From positions 62,001 through 126,000 of the forward strand of contig WIDE01000088.1 of NCBI GenBank assembly GCA_015039315.1: a stretch of DNA of 64,000 nt, written 5' to 3'. Below the pieces are notes generated by a model. That model did not search any database. It worked only from the letters and a program-made list of their open reading frames with translations, and was not told the origin of the DNA. The position numbers and the translations under genes were made by a program. Positions within the stretch are counted from its first letter, which is position 1, and each line of letters starts with the position of its first letter. The stretch comes from Clavulina sp. PMI_390 (Eukaryota > Basidiomycota > Agaricomycetes > Cantharellales > Hydnaceae). This document shows positions 11,882 to 63,714 of the stretch, piece after piece.

Positions 11882-14093
<2,212 letters not shown>

Positions 14094-24670: not shown

Positions 24671-26186
24671 ATGCATCTGAATCTCGCCCCTCTCATTTTG
24701 GCTCTCTCATTTTCCACTGTTTTCGCAATTCCCGTCGACCCGTAAGTCTATATCCTTCTTTATCTCCCAAAATTCGACCTAACCTAACGTTTCACCAGGC
24801 CGTCAGAGGTAAGAGAAATTGAATCAAGCTCTATATATCTTCTAAGTAGCTCGATCTAGGCGGATATCCTTGACCGTCGACTGTTCAGCTCCAAAGCACC
24901 CACTGTTGCGGCAAAGCCTGTAATCGCAGCGAAACCTCCCAAAGTGGTCGCTTCGAAGCCCGCAGCTCCCGCTAAACCACCTGTAGTGGCGCCTGCTAAA
25001 GCTCCTGTAGCACCCGCAAAGCCTCCAGCTGCGACCAAGCCGGCTGCACCACCCAAAGCGCCAGTTGCCTCTACTACCAAGGCCGCTGCCCCAGTCAAGT
25101 CGACTTCTCGGGCTCCTACATCCTCATCTAGCACTAGTACTGCCTCAGCGGTGAGCTATATACCCTCTCGCCATGTCGATTGTCATGAATTTACTCATGG
25201 AGTCACGATGCAGTGCCCGAAGCTTCCGAAAAGCACCGTCCTTCCGAGAGCTCCTTCCGTACGTGACGAGCTTGAAAACTTGGTGAAGCGTCATCTTGAC
25301 GAACATGACCTAAGCAAGCGTCTTACTGCCGGCAATGAATTCATTGGGTGGCATGGCACCAACTCGGTGAGAGTCATTGTCAGTTATGCAGTAGTCTCGT
25401 CTCACACTCCAGATAGGATACCGCAGCCCTCTGGGAGAAAACAGGCTCAGTGGTCAAGCCAGTTAGGGATGACGGGTCCGTCGCAGGCACATCCGGTCTA
25501 GATGCTGAATTGGGTCCCGGTCTGTACATCTCGGACACCCTTTCTGTGTCAGTATAGTCCATTCCCCGCTCGCTTCGATGTCATTCTGATACTTCATGCA
25601 TTCAGGGCTGAGGCTGCAGCCACAATCAATGCAAAGACGAACGCTGCATCCGGCGCAACGGCAAAAGCTTGTGCAATCTTCGCTAAATCATCCGTGAATT
25701 GGCGTGGCACGGTCGTCAAGGTTTGCTGAATTCAGCCCTATTATCTAATGCGCTGAATCTCACATTCCTCTCCGTTCTCCAGGCTCAAATTCCGGAATCG
25801 ATTCGCGGCAATGGGGCACAGTTCGAGACCATGCGTCAGCGCTACCTCCCTCTGCTTGGCCGACCTGGCGGCGCAGCTTCTCCAAGGCTTGGGCCACTTT
25901 CTGCAACTAAGAATCAGATGTTAATTCCAGAAGTCCTGAACCCAGGTTTGGAGGCGCAATGCTTTGACGTCGTAAACCTTGTAGCCCAAAACGTCCCCGC
26001 ATCAATCCCAACGGTACGCTTAGGACTAATGTCTTCTCGATCGGGATGTAGTCTTGCGCCATCTAACTTGTTGCGTCAAAATAGATTAGTTATACATCCG
26101 CTAGCATCCTATCTAGCTGGCTTATCAACAAGAATGACGAACAGCTTGCGACCGCTGTCAAGGCTTCCGTGCTGAAGAAGTGTTGA
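24671..26186 (+). CDS. Secreted ADP-ribosyltransferase-like protein, copy A
   Basis: Eight exons: join(24671..24741,24799..24808,24860..25150,25214..25366,25417..25547,25606..25720,25783..26013,26085..26186), 367 residues. A signal peptide (MHLNLAPLILALSFSTVFA) is followed by a short propeptide with a dibasic site (DILDRRLF). Exon 3 adds a Pro/Ala/Lys-rich linker of about 75 residues that copy B lacks. The globular part has NEFIGWHGTNS, GPGLYISDTLSVAE, AKACAIFAKSS and NQMLIPEVLNPGLEAQCFD. His-Gly-Thr followed some 50 residues later by Gly-Leu-Tyr and a Ser-Asp/Ala-Glu helix is the layout of the H-Y-E class of ADP-ribosyltransferase folds (PARP, diphtheria-toxin type); the Glu of LIPE is a candidate third residue. 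Family membership is inference; I know no named homologue. Cys pairs suggest disulphides. The 10-nt second exon is notable. Confidence 0.75.
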
Positions 26187-42135: not shown

Positions 42136-42454
42136 TATAAGACCATGCGAGAGATAGAGCTCAGGTTCCTCACTTCACCCAGTCACCTTTCTCCTTCGAC
42201 TCCTTTCGTTCTTCTTCGAGACACTAGTGCACTGGTTGCAGTAAGTCGCACCGTCTGCCATCATACGACTCCCTTGCATTGACTAACTTTGCCTTCTGCT
42301 CCTCCCAGCTTGTCCTTTTACTTCAAGCTTCATTATAATCAGCGTGCACTTTGAAAGTCGCCCTTAGACACTTGTTTCTTCAACTCGTTTAACGACCCCC
42401 ACATCACAACACTCTCACTTAATCTTTTTCATTTCCCCAACAATCTCAATCAAT
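42136..42454 (+). promoter_or_regulatory. TATA box, leader and 5'-UTR intron of the repeat-precursor gene
   Basis: GTATAAG at 42135-42141 is a TATA box. A pyrimidine-rich leader follows and contains a likely intron at 42241-42307 (GTAAGT donor, CTCCCAG acceptor). A TATA box with a CT-rich leader and leader intron is typical of strongly expressed fungal genes. Confidence 0.6.
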
Positions 42455-44662
42455 ATGCGCGCTGCCACTTCCATCGCTCTCATTGCCCTCCTCGCCGCCC
42501 CTGCCTTTGCTGCCCCCATCACCACTGAGGAGCCCCCTGTCGTTGAGGAGCCCACTACCTCCACTACTTCTACCACCAAGAGCAGCGGCAGCGGTCTTGG
42601 ATCCGCTGTCATCTCCTCTGCTGCTGGTGGCGCGGCTGGTGCTGTCGTCTCTAACCTCCTGAACAAGGTAAGCTTATTATCATCAAATATCTTTATAGTG
42701 GCATCCTAAAGCTGACCCAATGCGTCTTGACTACAGATCGAGAGCCTGTTCCGCCGTGATTTCGATGAGCGTGCCACTGGTTCTCTCACGAACATCATCC
42801 AGCAAGCCCAGACCCTGTCTGCTGCCGACAAGGCCACCGTGAAGACTGCCCTCGTTAACAAGATTGGCACTCTTCAGGGCAAGCGCGACGACTCGGAGCT
42901 GGAGGCTCGCGCCCCTCTCTCAGCCACTGGCCTTGGTGGTTCGCTTCTCTCTTCCGCCGCTGGTGGAGCTGCTTCCGGTCTCGTCGGTAACCTCCTCGGC
43001 GAGATTGAGAGCCTCTTCAAGCGTGATGACTTCGAGCTTGAGGCCCGTGCTCCTCTCTCATCCACCAGCCTCGGTGGCTCGCTGCTCTCCTCGGCTGCCG
43101 GTGGCGCTGCCTCCGGTCTCGTTGGCAACCTGCTTGGCGAGATTGAGAGCCTCTTCCGCCGTGGTGTTACCGATGTCCACGACGAGGAGCTCTACGTCAA
43201 GCGTGATGCTAGCTCGATCACCAGCATCATCACTCAGGCGCAGAACCTCTCGGCTGCGGACAAGGCTACCGTCAAGACCGCTCTTGTCAACAAGATCAGC
43301 ACTCTCCAGGGCAAGCGTGACGACTCCAGCCTTGAGGCTCGCTCTCCTCTCACTGCCGCCAGGCCCTCCACCTCCTCCTCCTCGTCTGGTCTTGGTTCCG
43401 CCATCATTTCATCCGCTGCTGGTGGCGCTGCCTCCGGCCTCGTTGGTAACCTCCTCAACGAGATCGAGAGCTTCTTCAAGCGTGACGACTCTGAGCTTGA
43501 GGCTCGCGCTCCTCTCTCCTCCACCAGCCTTGGTGGCTCTCTCCTTTCCTCCGCCGCCGGTGGTGCTGCCTCTGGCCTCGTTGGCAACCTTCTCGGAGAG
43601 ATCGAGAGCCTCTTCAAGCGTGGCGATGACCTTGTCTACTCCAAGCGTGCCACTGGCTCCCTCACCAACATCATCAAGCAGGCCCAGACCCTCTCTGCCG
43701 CAGACAAGGCTACCGTCAAGACGGCGCTGATCAACAAGGTCGGCACTCTCCAGAACAAGCGCGATGACGCCGAGCTCGAGGCCCGCGCTGGTCTTGGTGG
43801 TGCTATCGCCTCGTCCGTTGCTGGTGGCGCCGCTTCTGGCCTCGTTGGCAACCTTCTCGGTGAGATCGAGAGCCTATTCAAGCGTGAGGAATTTGAGCTC
43901 GAGGCCCGCGCTCCTCTCTCCGCCGGCAGCCTCGGTGGCTCCCTCCTCTCGTCTGCGGCTGGTGGTGCTGCTTCCGGTCTCGTCGGCAACCTGCTCGGCG
44001 AGATCGAGAGCCTCTTCCGCCGCAGCGTCACCGACGTTCACGATGAGGAGCTCTACGCCAAGCGTGATGTCAGCTCGATCAGCAACATCATTACCCAGGC
44101 AAAGACCCTCTCCGCTGCTGACAAGGCCACCGTCAAGGCTGCCCTCGTCAACAAGATCGGCACTCTCCAGACCCCCGCCAAGCGTCTGTCTGCCAGCGGC
44201 GCTGCTGGCACCGCGCTCGGCGGCCTTGCCTCTGTTGGCGCCAACTCGATCGTCAGCAGCTTGCTCTCGTCCATTGAGAGCCTGTTCCGTCGCGAGGAGA
44301 TGGAGGCCCTGATGGCCCGCCGCGAGGACAACATGATGAAGCTCCACGGCATGCAGCGCCGCGCTCCTCTGTCGTCCACTAGCCTCGGTGGCTCCCTCCT
44401 GTCGTCTGCCGCTGGTGGCGCCGCCTCTGGCCTCGTTGGCAACCTCCTCGGTGAGATCGAGAGCCTCTTCAAGCGCGAGGAATTCGAGCTTGAGGCCCGT
44501 GCTCCTCTCACCGCCGCCAAGCCCTCTTCCTCTGGTCTTGGCTCCGCCATCGCTTCATCCGCCGCTGGTGGTGCTGCCTCGGGCTTGGTTGGCAACCTCC
44601 TTAGCGAGCTCGAGAGCCTCTTCCGCCGCTCGGATGAGTTTGAGATCAACGATCTCGACTAA
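42455..44662 (+). CDS. Secreted Kex2-processed repeat precursor (KEP-type)
   Basis: Structure join(42455..42667,42737..44662), 712 residues. A signal peptide (MRAATSIALIALLAAPAFA) and a Thr-rich acidic propeptide lead into repeats. Ten type-A peptides share LGGSLLSSAAGGAASGLVGN followed by LLGEIESLF and end in KR or RR. Four type-B peptides share LSAADKATVKTALVNKIGTL and end in KR. Acidic linkers such as DDSELEAR and VTDVHDEELY lie between them. About 19 Lys-Arg or Arg-Arg sites fall at the repeat ends, as expected for cleavage by the Golgi protease Kex2, which would release some 14 peptides. Type A is hydrophobic with Gly/Ala-xxx-Gly/Ala patterns suited to membrane or amyloid packing; type B is a charged amphipathic helix. 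Kex2-processed repeat proteins (for example Ustilago Rep1) are a known class, but I know no named homologue of these peptides. The product's role is unknown. Confidence 0.85.
42590..44634 (+). repeat. In-frame tandem repeat array of the precursor gene
   Basis: The order is A1, then four (B-A-A) units starting near 42758, 43205, 43649 and 44069, then A10. Units 1 and 3 open with ATGSLTNII, while units 2 and 4 open with D-[AV]-SSI and are preceded by VTDVHDEELY-[VA]-KR, so a two-unit block was itself duplicated. Confidence 0.85.
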
Positions 44663-47579: not shown

Positions 47580-50500
47580 TTACATCGGAGTACGACGCTT
47601 CGAGACAGGGCGTGCCCTCTTCCCCTTCTTCCCATTTGCAAATGCGTTTGCACTCCTGTGCTCGCGTCCAAGAGGGTCCTCCTTCTTGACCTCGTAGATG
47701 CGGACCTGTTACGAAAAACAAGATGCAATCATGATCGGTCCTTGAGTAAAGACGCATTATGGATGAGAAAATCCGGGGATGACTCACGATCCAGTTTTCC
47801 GAGGTGAAGGCCTCCTCTGCAACCCAAAAAAACTCGGTCAGTTCCTGGGCGCTAAAAAGTCGCGTAGCAGCACAGCAATTACTCACCAAGATAATCTAGC
47901 TGCACACCGCCAACCGGGATAGTCTGTCCTCTCACACGGTCCTGTGGAGGTTGGCCGCCGTACAGCTCGTCAAACCGCCAGTAGCTAAGCTTGTACAGTA
48001 AGCTGTCACGCATGGTCTTGGACGCTTCGGCATCGACCTTGTACTCCCCACGGCTCGTGAAGTACTCGTTCTCCTTCACCTCATCGGGCCACACACCCTG
48101 CGCGATACGGATCATCCACAGGAACTTGTTGATGTCGTCGCCAGAGTAGCCAATCAGCCCACCAAAGATGACAAGCACGTACGAAACGTCATGCTTGCGG
48201 AGGATGGGGTAGGCAACCTCTTCGGAGAGGGACATGGCTTTACCGACAGTAGCGATATGTGCTGTGGACAATACATTCGTTAGTACAGTCGCTATAGTCA
48301 ATGTAGTGAAAACACTCACTATTGTTCCAAGTGTTGTTGTCGACCAATGTGGGGCGGTCAGCGAAGCCTGCAATCTGGTAGCCGTAATCCCACCAGCTCA
48401 TCACGACCGCATCCTCCGCAGTGTTCATGCGAATCCAGTAATAAGCCTCACGGAAATCATCGATGATATTTTGGCTCCCATCATTGTTTCGCGAGGCAAG
48501 GACGACGGACGGAGACGAGTATGCGTTCGAGGTCACCCATGTGCAGTGCAGAACGAAGATGAGAAGGAGGAAAGTGGTGTTGAAGATGACACCAAGACGC
48601 GTGTCAAGGCCGAACACGCCAGTCTTCTTTTTGGGGCGCGAGACGGGTGCGGACGCAGCGCTGCCATTGGCAGGGGTGGGCGTAGCGCCAACAGCAGCGA
48701 CGGCAGCAGCAGCAGCCTTTTTGGCCTTGCGGCTAGCGGGAGTATCAGCAGCAGCGCGAGTAGCAGAGGCAGGACTCTCATCCTCGTCCTTCTCTTCCTC
48801 TGGCTCCTCCAGGTCAACGTACACATCGAACAGAGAGCTCAGTGCAATGGCAGCGCTGACACACACAACGGGGGTGAGCGTGAGCATAAGCCGAACCATG
48901 ACACCTGCAAAGTACGACGCGAAGACGGCGTAGATGATGATGAAGAGGTGCTCGTCGCGCAGCTCGCGGAAGCAGAGCAGGACACCGGCAGGGAAAACGA
49001 AGATGAGCAGGTTGAGATCCATGAAGAAGGCGGGCCAGGCGGTAGGCTGGTGCTCAGAGACGGAGGCGATGATAGGGATGTACCTGACGCGGTAAAAGTC
49101 AAATTAGTTAGATAAAAGGGGAAGAATACTCTGCATATCGGAGTTGACTTACTTCTTGGCGTACTCGGTATCCCAAAGTGAGTAGAAACGACCAGTCCAG
49201 GGAGCGATCTTTCCAGTAACAGTCAGCGCGACGAATGCACCAACGCCGAGAAGACCAATCGCAGCCATGCTCCAGCGAAGCAGAGTTTGGAACTGCTTCT
49301 GCGCCACGTGGGAACGGACCAGCTCGGTGAAGGCAACGAGTTGCATGAGGCCAAACACGCCTGAATGGTCCATAGTGGTCAGACAGGGAAAAAAAAACAC
49401 CAAGCACTGTTCACTTACCGAGAGCACCCATATGATCACTGGTGCTGACAGGCTGGAAGCCTACGAAGGGGACCTGCATGCTTGCCAGTGTACCGACGGC
49501 GTACCAAGTTGAGTAGGCAATGTATAGACGGTTGGAGAAGCGGCCCATGAGGGTGAGCACAAGGGCGTGAAGCGGGATCATGTTGGTGATAAATACGTAT
49601 CCACCTATAAATGAGCCAAGGGGGTCAGCGAATGGTTCAGAGAGCATTACAAGTAGGCCTAATTCGGCGTAGACTCCTCAAAGAACAATGATACATACCC
49701 CAAGCAGCCACCATGTAGAAGTAGAAAACAGCAGCGCCAGTTCCGTACAGAACGCTTCCATCCTTCATAGCCTTGATCCACAAGTAGAAAGTGAACATGA
49801 GGAGGAAGATGGCGATGGCTTCGTTATCGTAGGACCCAGCGACTGAACGAGAGATGTAGCCTGGGACGATGCCAATGAATGCGGCAGCGAGAAGGCCTGC
49901 AGAGGGGTCTTTCATCTCGCAGGTGAAACTGAGTCATGGAAAGAGCATCAACAAAATGACTCCAAGAAACGACACCTGGGAAGAAAGAAACTCACAGGTA
50001 GGTAGCAAACGCAGTGAGGGCACTGAACCCAGGTGCGAGCATAACACAAACATCTCGAATGTTAACAGGAAGGTGGAGGGCGTGGAGGAAGTTGTAGATA
50101 ACACCGCTGGTGGCCATAAGACCAGGATAGATAGTGCCACCGACGACACGACCCAGTGGGTACCATGCTGTGGGGTCGAACCAGTTCCAGAATTCCTGAG
50201 TGACGTAGGTGGTAGTTAGCTTTCAAAGACACCGCTCAAGAGGAAAGAGGGCATACATAGAATCCTTGGGCAGTGAGTACTCTTGTTGCGCGACTAGAGG
50301 AAGCATGTGGGGTATATTTAGCCCAGCATCCACGTATGGAGTATCAGCGACGTACTAATTGAACCAAGGATCGCTAAGAAAAGGAAATTGAGCTCTATCA
50401 TCACATTCTTCGGAGAATTGTCAGGTATCGTACTCACAATTCGTGGATAATACTCTCAAAGTTTACGACAGCGAATAACCTATGGAGGACCCATGAGAGT

Positions 50501-61800: not shown

Positions 61801-63714
61801 TCATTGGCGACAATCAGGCCCCGCACCTGAATGGAGCACACCATTCTGAGCCCAGACCTCCATCAGGGCAGCACCCTCCTGTACCGTCAGCCGAGACGGT
61901 ACCTCAACGGGGACAAGCCCCTTGGCGTACTCAGAGTACTCTGAGTGGCGCTCTGCCCATGGCGCACCTGCTCGCTGAGGAGTACGCCCCAAACCGTCAA
62001 GCAGCTCGAGAGGCACGGGGAACTCTCGGCTGGAGCTAGATAGTGCACCGAAGATCGCACCTCGTCCCTGGTAACGAGTGACGTCATCAGGAGGTGGCGA
62101 GCGGGAAGGATCCACCAATCAGATACTCATAGCAACAATTTGGTTCCGAAACAGACGCACAAATGACTTTTGCCCAGAAACGTATTCCAGCACCAGCCGT
62201 GGGACCGAGAGGTGCAGCGCCTGAATGTAATTGAAGTCTGGGTCGCGGTAGCGGGACTGGCCAAATATAGCCTGAATATCGTCTACAGCCAACAGAACAG
62301 GGACGCTGGAGATAGATGAATATATGAGCGGCTGAAACCGAAGCCATGGGGATAATGAAACCTACTCTTGCTGCTTTGCCAATATCTCCAGTGTCTCTCG
62401 CAAAATATTCATCGAAGAATTAGGATCCATCACACCAGCATCAACGAGCTCCGCCAGCTTAGCGCCAGCCGCAATTGTTGTGCGGTCGAGCACAATCTCT
62501 TTCGGTGTTTTCAGAGCCGACAGTACGTTAGCATTGAACTTGGCGAAGTTTGATAACAGTTCTCGCGCGAGGGCGCTCTGGATGAATGTTCCAGACTTTG
62601 CATCGTACTGGAAAGTAGTAGTGGAGTTGACCCAATCAATCGCTGGACAACCATCTCTGTTAGTGACGCGATCCATGTATCTAAATCCTCGGCACACCTC
62701 TCGGAACGTAGAATACGGCCCAACCATGGCGCGCACAGTACTCGGCCGTCTGAAGTAGCGTGACACTCTTCCCGGAGCCCTTCTCGCCAGCTGAAGGAGG
62801 GCATGAATTAATACAAAGAACATTTTTGGGCAACAAAAGCTGACTGACTGAGAACATAACGATTCTGCCGGCTTTCGCTTTGCGAAGCAGCATCCATCTG
62901 TTTGAAAGAGCTTAGTGATATATCTCTGATGATGGAGAACGCCTGGTCCATATGGATTCGCTGGTGGAGAAATGAGTGAAATCGCAAGTTTGAGTGGCAT
63001 TCAGAATTATGGACTTACGTCTTCTCGCAGAGAACGAGGAACACCAAATGTCTCCTGTAGGGACCCCTTCCCTGAGTCAAAGGCTACGGGTCTGGCTCGA
63101 AGGCTTGGGTTAATCTCGACCTATGCAAACAATTGTGAACTTCGTCAACTACCGCGAGGAATGATATCACATACGTTGGTGAGCTGAGGAAGAGCAGTAG
63201 ATGGGTTCTGGTTCCGGAATGAGCTAGAGTTTTCGCTCAAGGGCATTGGAGCCATCTAGCAGGACCAAACGAACGCCAAGAGAGGGTATATGCAAATGTT
63301 ATAGCAAAAGGTAGAACGTCAATGAAGGTTTGGATTAGGTAGAGCATGTGCGAGGCGACGTACCGAGCCACCAGACCTAATACTGTGCTGCTTCTTCTTT
63401 GAGCCAAAGCCTGAGCTCTGTTTGGTGCGTGCCATTGTCGAGCTATTTGCTGTGGGAGGCGAGCCGTGTATTCAAGCAGTTCAGGGCCAGAGAAACGAAG
63501 GAATGGGGATATTAGGGAGCAGTAGACGTCGAATAAAGTTAGTAGTCTTGGATAGCGAGGTATGGAATGCGTCCTCACCAGGAGCAGCGAGGACGCTCGC
63601 TGTCGAGGCTATCCCTCTTCGCGACAACACAATAACGGACGAAGCCGGAAGAGAGGTACTCCCCACCGTCAGCCTCGGGCGGCAAACGCGTAGTGCACGG
63701 CTTGTACTGGCCAT
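61801..63714 (-). CDS. Mitochondrial ribosomal small-subunit protein mS29 (DAP3 family)
   Basis: Multi-exon; span given. mS29 is the nucleotide-binding P-loop protein of the mitochondrial small ribosomal subunit. I place the start at 63714: exon 1 (63579-63714) encodes MASTSRALRVCRPRL with further Arg and Ser and no acids until its end, an ideal mitochondrial presequence, and joins in frame to exon 2 (from 63449) reading ANSSTMARTKQSSGFGSKKK. Later landmarks are RPVAFDSGKGSLQETFGVP, Walker A GEKGSGKSVTLLQ, TAEYCARHGWAVFYVPR, Walker B VPVLLAVDDIQAIF, LPLELLDGLGR-type PLELLD, and the family C-terminus LTVQEGAALMEVWAQNGVLHS (first 20 residues shown in part). A downstream ATG at 63435 would lose the presequence. 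The equivalent yeast gene is RSM23. Confidence 0.9.

Follow-up and report, generated by a model that had tools for sequence, protein, structure and literature searches.

The window, the whole stretch of 64,000 nucleotides of the soil fungus Clavulina sp. PMI_390 that was analysed (contig WIDE01000088.1), carries a plus-strand gene at 42455-44662 which consists of two exons (CDS 42455-42667 and 42737-44662) and codes for a product of 712 residues. The coordinates, frame and length assigned to it in an earlier note on this DNA were right, the two-exon reading giving the 712 residues. A single coding intron is retained (42668-42736; 69 nt, GT..AG, phase 0), situated within the first of a series of repeat units that are here termed A, B and C. 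Elsewhere in the window, Pfam matches were obtained for STT3 (48240-49103), a DEAD-box helicase (11882-13171) and DAP3 (62362-63000), all on the minus strand, while a plus-strand open reading frame at 24860-25501, without a Pfam match at E 0.001, encodes repeats rich in Ala, Pro and Lys, after which come dibasic sites and a GWHGTN motif. The features of the repeat gene and its leader are as follows:

42136..42141, plus strand: TATAAG promoter box; TATAAG/TATAAA in 11/11 paralogue upstream regions
42241..42308, plus strand: 5' leader intron, 68 nt; GT 11/11 and AG 11/11 among paralogues, flanks alike, body not
42455..42757, plus strand: signal peptide (by inspection), Thr/Pro-rich stretch and first A unit (end IESLFRR), with the coding intron inside
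42668..42736, plus strand: coding intron, 69 nt, phase 0; same-codon introns in A units yield open paralogue models
42758..42886, plus strand: B unit 1
42887..43024, plus strand: A unit with DDSELEAR spacer
43025..43162, plus strand: A unit with DDFELEAR spacer
43163..43204, plus strand: acidic spacer peptide GVTDVHDEELYV-KR; 22 spacer matches across the window and fetched loci
43205..43318, plus strand: B unit 2
43319..43483, plus strand: A unit, N-terminus rich in Ser, with DDSSLEAR spacer
43484..43621, plus strand: A unit with DDSELEAR spacer
43622..43648, plus strand: short spacer GDDLVYS-KR
43649..43762, plus strand: B unit 3
43763..43885, plus strand: A unit, short variant AGLGGAI, with DDAELEAR spacer
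43886..44023, plus strand: A unit with EEFELEAR spacer
44024..44065, plus strand: acidic spacer peptide SVTDVHDEELYA-KR
44066..44185, plus strand: B unit 4, end TPA-KR, followed by C
44186..44293, plus strand: C unit, third long type; 24 C cores across the window and fetched loci
44294..44362, plus strand: Met-rich double spacer EEMEALMA-RR, EDNMMKLHGMQ-RR
44363..44476, plus strand: A unit with APLSS.. start directly behind a dibasic site
44477..44629, plus strand: last A copy, with EEFELEAR spacer
44630..44659, plus strand: acidic C-terminal tail SDEFEINDLD; INDLD in the Clavulina protein P0001, INELD in P0003, P0004 and P0005, neither in P0002

A secretion signal, MRAATSIALIALLAAPAFA-AP, was recognised by inspection at the N-terminus, where the earlier note had also placed a signal peptide. 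It is followed by a Thr/Pro-rich part and by units in the order A B A A s B A A B A A s B C m A A, in which s is a 14-residue spacer, (G/S)VTDVHDEELY(V/A)KR, and m the double Met-rich spacer, and the precursor closes with the acidic tail. Fourteen long units are thus present, nine of type A, four of type B and one of type C (A:B:C = 9:4:1), and Lys-Arg or Arg-Arg closes all 14, as had been claimed for every copy. The count of ten A and four B copies in the earlier note stands for B, while its ten A resolve into nine A and one C. Profile comparison identifies C (44186-44293) as a third long type whose C-terminal part is akin to A (hhalign probability 90% over 16 C-terminal columns). The same comparison bears out A and B as unrelated kinds (0.1%; B against C, 0.4%), but not the notion that there are only two kinds, as type C recurs in 9 of 11 family gene models. 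The A units of the window gene are hydrophobic and rich in Gly, Ala and Ser, and acidic spacers separate the long units, the precursor containing, besides the long units, six short pieces when the C-terminal tail is counted. An 8-residue acidic spacer ending in (E/S)LEAR precedes seven of the nine A units within the same dibasic-bounded piece, so that the released A peptide may comprise either ~36 or ~44 residues. The A unit at 44363-44476 begins immediately behind a dibasic site, which suggests APLSS.. as the N-terminus of mature A.

Loss of the dibasic sites in homologues had been named in the earlier note as an observation that would speak against cleavage. The A and C ends were therefore counted with Arg demanded at P1 and P2 left free, over the window and twelve fetched stretches (L009-L020, with L021 left out), and P2 proved to be Lys or Arg in 116 of 125 ends in these 13 stretches (85 RR, 31 KR). 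The nine others keep the single Arg (SR 3, QR 2, GR 2, ER 1, NR 1). Seven of these nine occur in one locus, L015 on C240 (SR, GR, QR, ER), which, judging from these ends, may be losing its Kex2 sites. Reading of the Ramaria relative P0006 likewise showed KR behind ..ESLF. Twelve codon pairs encode the dibasic site among 41 A units that were selected for KR or RR ends. The 43 B ends and 60 LEAR sites that were also counted constitute no evidence of conservation, since the search patterns had already demanded the basic residue.

The units themselves are constrained. For the last 27 codons of nine window A units taken by position, pS was 0.482 and pN 0.112, a ratio of 0.23 (95% bootstrap 0.11-0.40), while the four B units taken by position gave 0.28 (0.13-0.50) and the ten LF-ending window units, C included, 0.36 (0.24-0.53). 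Shifting the A stretches to frame +1 gave a ratio of 2.2 (8 stop-free units), while in frame +2 stop codons spared too few A units for a ratio. Earlier ratios from pattern-selected units (A 0.088 in the window and 0.106 in all; B 0.186 and 0.169; C 0.168) are biased low because the units were chosen by pattern, and are superseded for the window by the position-based values. At the codon level, these ratios show that both A and B units are under purifying selection. The nearest synonymous neighbour of 36 of the 41 pattern-selected A units lies in another locus and of only five in the same stretch, and mean pS of A units amounts to 0.61 when different stretches are compared and to 0.47 inside the window gene. 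Concerted evolution or gene conversion as the source of their likeness is not supported by the count of five in 41. Diverged synonymous sites, steady peptides and neighbours mostly elsewhere indicate that selection, more than homogenisation, holds the A copies alike, and the high synonymous divergence, together with neighbours that lie mostly in other stretches, implies that the copies are old.

When the 39.4 Mb assembly of Clavulina sp. PMI_390 was searched exon by exon, 85 matches were returned, and these were grouped by eye into ~17 family loci. These are distributed over C289 (the window gene, and a second locus at 1.3-2.4 kb), C274 (three), C54 (two), C144, C113 (two), C117, C240 (two), C192, C292, C248 and C247. 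A further match on C33 (E 5e-6) was discarded, the unit motif being absent from the examined stretch. Eleven loci, the window gene among them, share the gene start MRAATS(I/V)ALI. Some pairs are close, L009 and L011 for instance being 93.7% identical over 2.1 kb, and may represent recent duplicates or haplotypes; stretches of N lie within or adjoin family members in L012, L017 and L018. In the paralogue models introns were permitted at one codon of A alone and several models end early, so that their unit counts are lower bounds; 24 introns were placed in 11 models, many A units having theirs at one and the same phase-0 codon, the only codon examined. Ten of the 11 gene models contain both A and B, the exception being L012, which is ended by a masked stretch. 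The A:B ratio has a lower limit of 1.25, or of 1.0 if an incomplete model is counted, and an upper limit of 4.0 among 16 models and NCBI proteins, some of which are the same gene and several of which are incomplete. The co-release of A and B at a fixed ratio of about 2:1, as formerly proposed, is thus not a property of the family, as A:B differs between its genes (~1:1 to 4:1). The strain name Clavulina sp. PMI_390 also appears in the available text of an algal co-culture study (PMC6634985).

A TATA box lies at -300 to -319 from the ATG in all 11 paralogue upstream regions (TATAAG in ten, TATAAA in one). The leader intron of the window gene is supported by comparison of 11 aligned paralogue leaders, in which the GT and AG ends are invariant and mean pairwise identity is 0.89 over the 40 nt 5' of the intron, 0.44 in the intron body and 0.82 over the 40 nt 3' of it. 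The presence of both elements at all 11 readable starts suggests that regulation is probably common to the family. Codon adaptation of the window copy, relative to a reference of a single gene (EF1A, 353 codons), is 0.583, the highest of ten copies (0.327-0.583), and nine other exons of the window score lower (0.219-0.461). Together with the common TATA box and leader intron, this codon usage makes the high expression anticipated in the earlier note probable.

Outside Clavulina, the exon-2 search, in which the 7,994 best word-sharing candidates were scored, recovered five Clavulina proteins (P0001-P0005), one Ramaria rubella protein (K439DRAFT_1637870, P0006) and one metagenomic protein (P0007). 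A profile search, with 7,997 such candidates scored, added the metagenomic P0008 and P0009. As scoring was confined to the candidates with most words in common, relatives were possibly missed. By reading, P0001 corresponds to L012 on C144. Profiles of A, B and C were compared with the four outsiders P0006-P0009 against 500 shuffles each; the pattern used for collecting A units fused three of them with a preceding C tail, and these were kept in the profile. The A profile scored well above the shuffle maximum in P0006 (28.7 vs 7.3), P0008 (15.9 vs 6.7) and P0009 (16.9 vs 8.2) and was marginal in P0007 (6.6 vs 5.4). The C profile was recovered in P0009 (19.7 vs 9.2) and P0008 (10.3 vs 3.9), reached only a borderline score in P0006, in overlap with A (6.7 vs 6.0), and was not significant in P0007 (6.6 vs 6.7). 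The B profile was significant in none of the four (best 3.2, in P0009, vs 7.7). Of 818 candidates, none but the five Clavulina proteins were recovered by a query of spacer, B and C alone, under a length limit that shuts out P0008 and P0009. The search of A and B against fungal proteomes recommended in the earlier note hence succeeded for A, in Ramaria and in uncultured sequences, and for B yielded nothing outside Clavulina among the candidates scored. On these profile scores, A is common to Clavulina and other fungi, while B is known here from Clavulina alone. The A-type units of P0006, P0008 and P0009 end in ..LF-KR/RR as in Clavulina, and P0009 further resembles the Clavulina family in its C-like unit; all three differ from the Clavulina precursors in having no significant B. 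At the acidic precursor ends (window 44645-44659), INDLD or INELD occurs in four of the five Clavulina proteins, P0002 and likewise P0009 being without the motif, and HDLD, NELD and VDLD are found in P0006, P0007 and P0008, respectively. This short acidic C-terminal motif may serve as a sorting signal.

The two main peptide types differ in their chemistry. Trimmed A (a 36-mer) has a GRAVY of 0.80 and a charge of -2 and trimmed C values of 1.09 and -1, while the four B pieces range from -0.18 to 0.24 with charges of 0 to +3; the window precursor minus its signal carries a charge of -13. Leaving aside the first, the A/C pieces, nine in number, measure 34-53 aa once the basic pair is trimmed. The maximal hydrophobic moment of the A/C pieces is only moderate (0.28-0.37). 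Small residues recur at every fourth position of A (G18, S22, G26 and G30, by reading), a spacing which is presumed to resemble a glycine zipper. AlphaFold placed B helices at 4-18 and 22-51, the latter extending into the spacer, and an A helix at 72-88 in a B-A module (mean pLDDT 62), from which B is weakly predicted to form a helix-turn-helix. The exon-2 model was poor (mean pLDDT 47), so that no fold backs any function, and a compact fold was supported by neither model. The window protein yielded four Pfam matches, all under the cut-off, and two NCBIfam matches far under it. In the PDB sequence search the best match of exon 2 had an E of 0.56 and A had none up to E 1, and Foldseek of the B-A model returned no convincing structural match (best E 5). 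A 12-residue PDB match of B to the N-termini of haemoglobin alpha (LSAADKATVK; best E 0.025) is probably due to chance. The idea that the peptides replace hydrophobins was set aside, the zero matches to PF01185 carrying no weight because the controls were equally silent.

Precursors with at least three similar repeats bounded by KR or RR are counted as Kex2-processed repeat proteins (KEPs), and the window product contains nine A plus one C and four B units of this form. It is very probable from this layout, from the 14 of 14 dibasic ends in the window and from the 116 of 125 in the family that the gene encodes a Kex2-type multi-peptide precursor, as the earlier note held. Searches of the assembly for a kexin, with P_proprotein and with two kexin motifs as DNA patterns, each gave no match, both being unspliced searches that are weak in an intron-rich genome. 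The Peptidase_S8 matches, when read by eye, were taken to be proteinase K-like (L022, L023) and sedolisin-like (L028-L031). In an unspliced search, UstYa (DUF3328) had 18 matches in the genome (C2, C60, C198 and C237) and none on C289 or the other family-bearing contigs, which favours linear peptides and led to the rejection of a cyclic dikaritin RiPP. Eleven of the 18 fall within ~37 kb (C2:52753-90023), a possible RiPP-type cluster. An alpha-pheromone-type KEP was likewise rejected, given that the long units start with DDSELEAR, EEFELEAR, ATGS, DASS, LSAS or APLSS and, by reading, lack the XA/XP runs of the STE13 signature.

The favoured reading, which is held to be somewhat better than even, is that the window gene encodes a KEP whose A peptides are surface- or membrane-active and whose B units and spacers solubilise A during export. 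For its parts, a surface or membrane activity of A has about an even chance, while the role of B as chiefly a solubilising partner is put forward tentatively. The precursor would be directed to secretion by its signal and cut behind KR/RR by kexin in the late Golgi, as in the known KEP pathway, and perhaps also behind the single Arg of LEAR. The latter cut is possible because KEP products are apparently cleaved after a single Arg in the available text of one study (PMC9769878), and because one A unit starts with APLSS directly after RR. A Kex1-like carboxypeptidase would then remove the basic residues, leaving hydrophobic A/C peptides of ~34-44 residues with ..ESLF at the end, B peptides that are soluble (~36 residues) and short acidic peptides. 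A would be the likely effector, probably self-associating at the hyphal surface or in its surroundings in the manner of the smut repellents, and B and the acidic spacers would most likely act in cis, so that the ten hydrophobic stretches stay in solution until they are cut apart, by analogy with Ece1. The absence of significant B from the four relatives outside Clavulina counts against this role for B, as A-type precursors seem able to do without it. The nine monobasic ends, the poor exon-2 model, the only moderate hydrophobic moments of A and the empty, if weak, kexin searches likewise weigh against the favoured reading. A wider form of the reading, considered rather unlikely, would see in the family an export system of hydrophobic effector repeats interleaved with single-use B solubilisers acting in cis, with A:B:C and unit order tuned per gene. 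The phase-0 introns inside A units would in that case make the B-A block a swappable exon module, by which splicing or recombination could alter the peptide mix.

Joint action of A and B outside the cell, for example in a mixed film, fibril or pore, would account for their co-occurrence in 10 of 11 gene models, for purifying selection on both and for the net negative charge of A beside the neutral to positive charge of B. A ratio that varies from ~1 to 4 among genes argues against a fixed assembly, however, as do the four relatives without significant B, and such a two-component product is judged unlikely. A role of the units as secreted linear peptides for signalling or antimicrobial defence, unrelated to surface coating and kept up by a multi-gene family, is similarly improbable: the ~17 loci, their varying unit order and the mostly biotic roles of characterised KEP peptides in the text consulted (PMC9769878) would fit, but the units are conserved rather than diversified and A appears longer and more hydrophobic than a typical soluble signal. 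An uncleaved structural wall or extracellular protein with incidental dibasic sites, to which the silent, weak kexin searches and the nine monobasic ends could be reconciled, is very improbable in view of the 116 of 125 free P2 positions occupied by Lys or Arg and the lack of a predicted compact fold.

As a class, KEPs are well established (Le Marquer 2019, PMC6339444; Umemura 2020, PMC7329392; Vogt 2022, PMC9769878), and most of them have no assigned function according to the available text of the last of these papers (PMC9769878). The same text describes linear KEP peptides detected by mass spectrometry in other Agaricomycetes, some of which fit single-Arg cleavage, and, in Coprinopsis, six KEP knockouts without phenotype and synthetic peptides without antibacterial activity (PMC9769878), which counts against the favoured reading of A as a surface- or membrane-active peptide with B as its carrier. 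Like KEPs, the window precursor combines a secretion signal with peptide repeats between KR or RR, and like most of those in the 2020 survey, as far as its text was available (PMC7329392), it has no UstYa/DUF3328 match near its family. It departs from the KEPs described in the consulted parts of these papers by the alternation, within a single precursor, of long repeats from two families without relation to each other (A/C and B), and by belonging to a family of ~17 loci. Clavulina and Cantharellales have no matches in the main texts of PMC6339444 and PMC7329392, whose supplementary tables lay outside the search and may list the family. With the class itself known, what appears to be new relative to those texts is that long repeats of two unrelated types are interleaved, and this across a large family under a common promoter. 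Dikaritins of the ustiloxin type share Kex2-processed repeats with the window precursor, but differ from its family, whose contigs gave no UstYa match in the search.

Resemblances to Rep1 and Ece1 are analogies of mode of action and do not imply membership. Rep1 of Ustilago maydis (652 aa) carries 12 amphipathic repeats, each of 34-55 aa and flanked by Kex2 sites, and the peptides cut from it act at the hyphal surface, where they form fibrils, while the amphipathic repeats of Hum3 number 17 and measure 31-36 aa (PMC4617103, in the text available). The A/C pieces (34-53 aa) fall within the Rep1 repeat length criterion of ~34-55 aa, and A resembles the Rep1 repellent peptides in size, hydrophobicity and repetition. 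The consulted text on Rep1 and Hum3 does not mention a B-like soluble repeat (PMC4617103), and fibrils are a feature described for the Rep1 peptides. In Candida albicans, companion peptides of Ece1 are described in the available text as preventing intracellular aggregation of a very hydrophobic peptide (PMC12153327). Ece1 is like the window precursor a Kex2/Kex1-processed polyprotein with a hydrophobic peptide and companions (PMC12153327), the likeness again being one of mode. It differs in comprising eight peptides with one known effector and no repeated A/B blocks, and A is not claimed to be a toxin. Ece1 is, to our knowledge, the sole case where passage of a very hydrophobic peptide along the secretory pathway has been demonstrated to depend on its companions. 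With its ~17 loci in one fungus and many natural ratios of hydrophobic to soluble repeats, the Clavulina family offers a comparative series for solubilisation by companion repeats, and its layout could shed light on the safe export of sticky peptides by fungi. Should A coat the hyphae, repellent-like surface peptides could gain another example, here from the Cantharellales, an order of mushrooms that diverged early.
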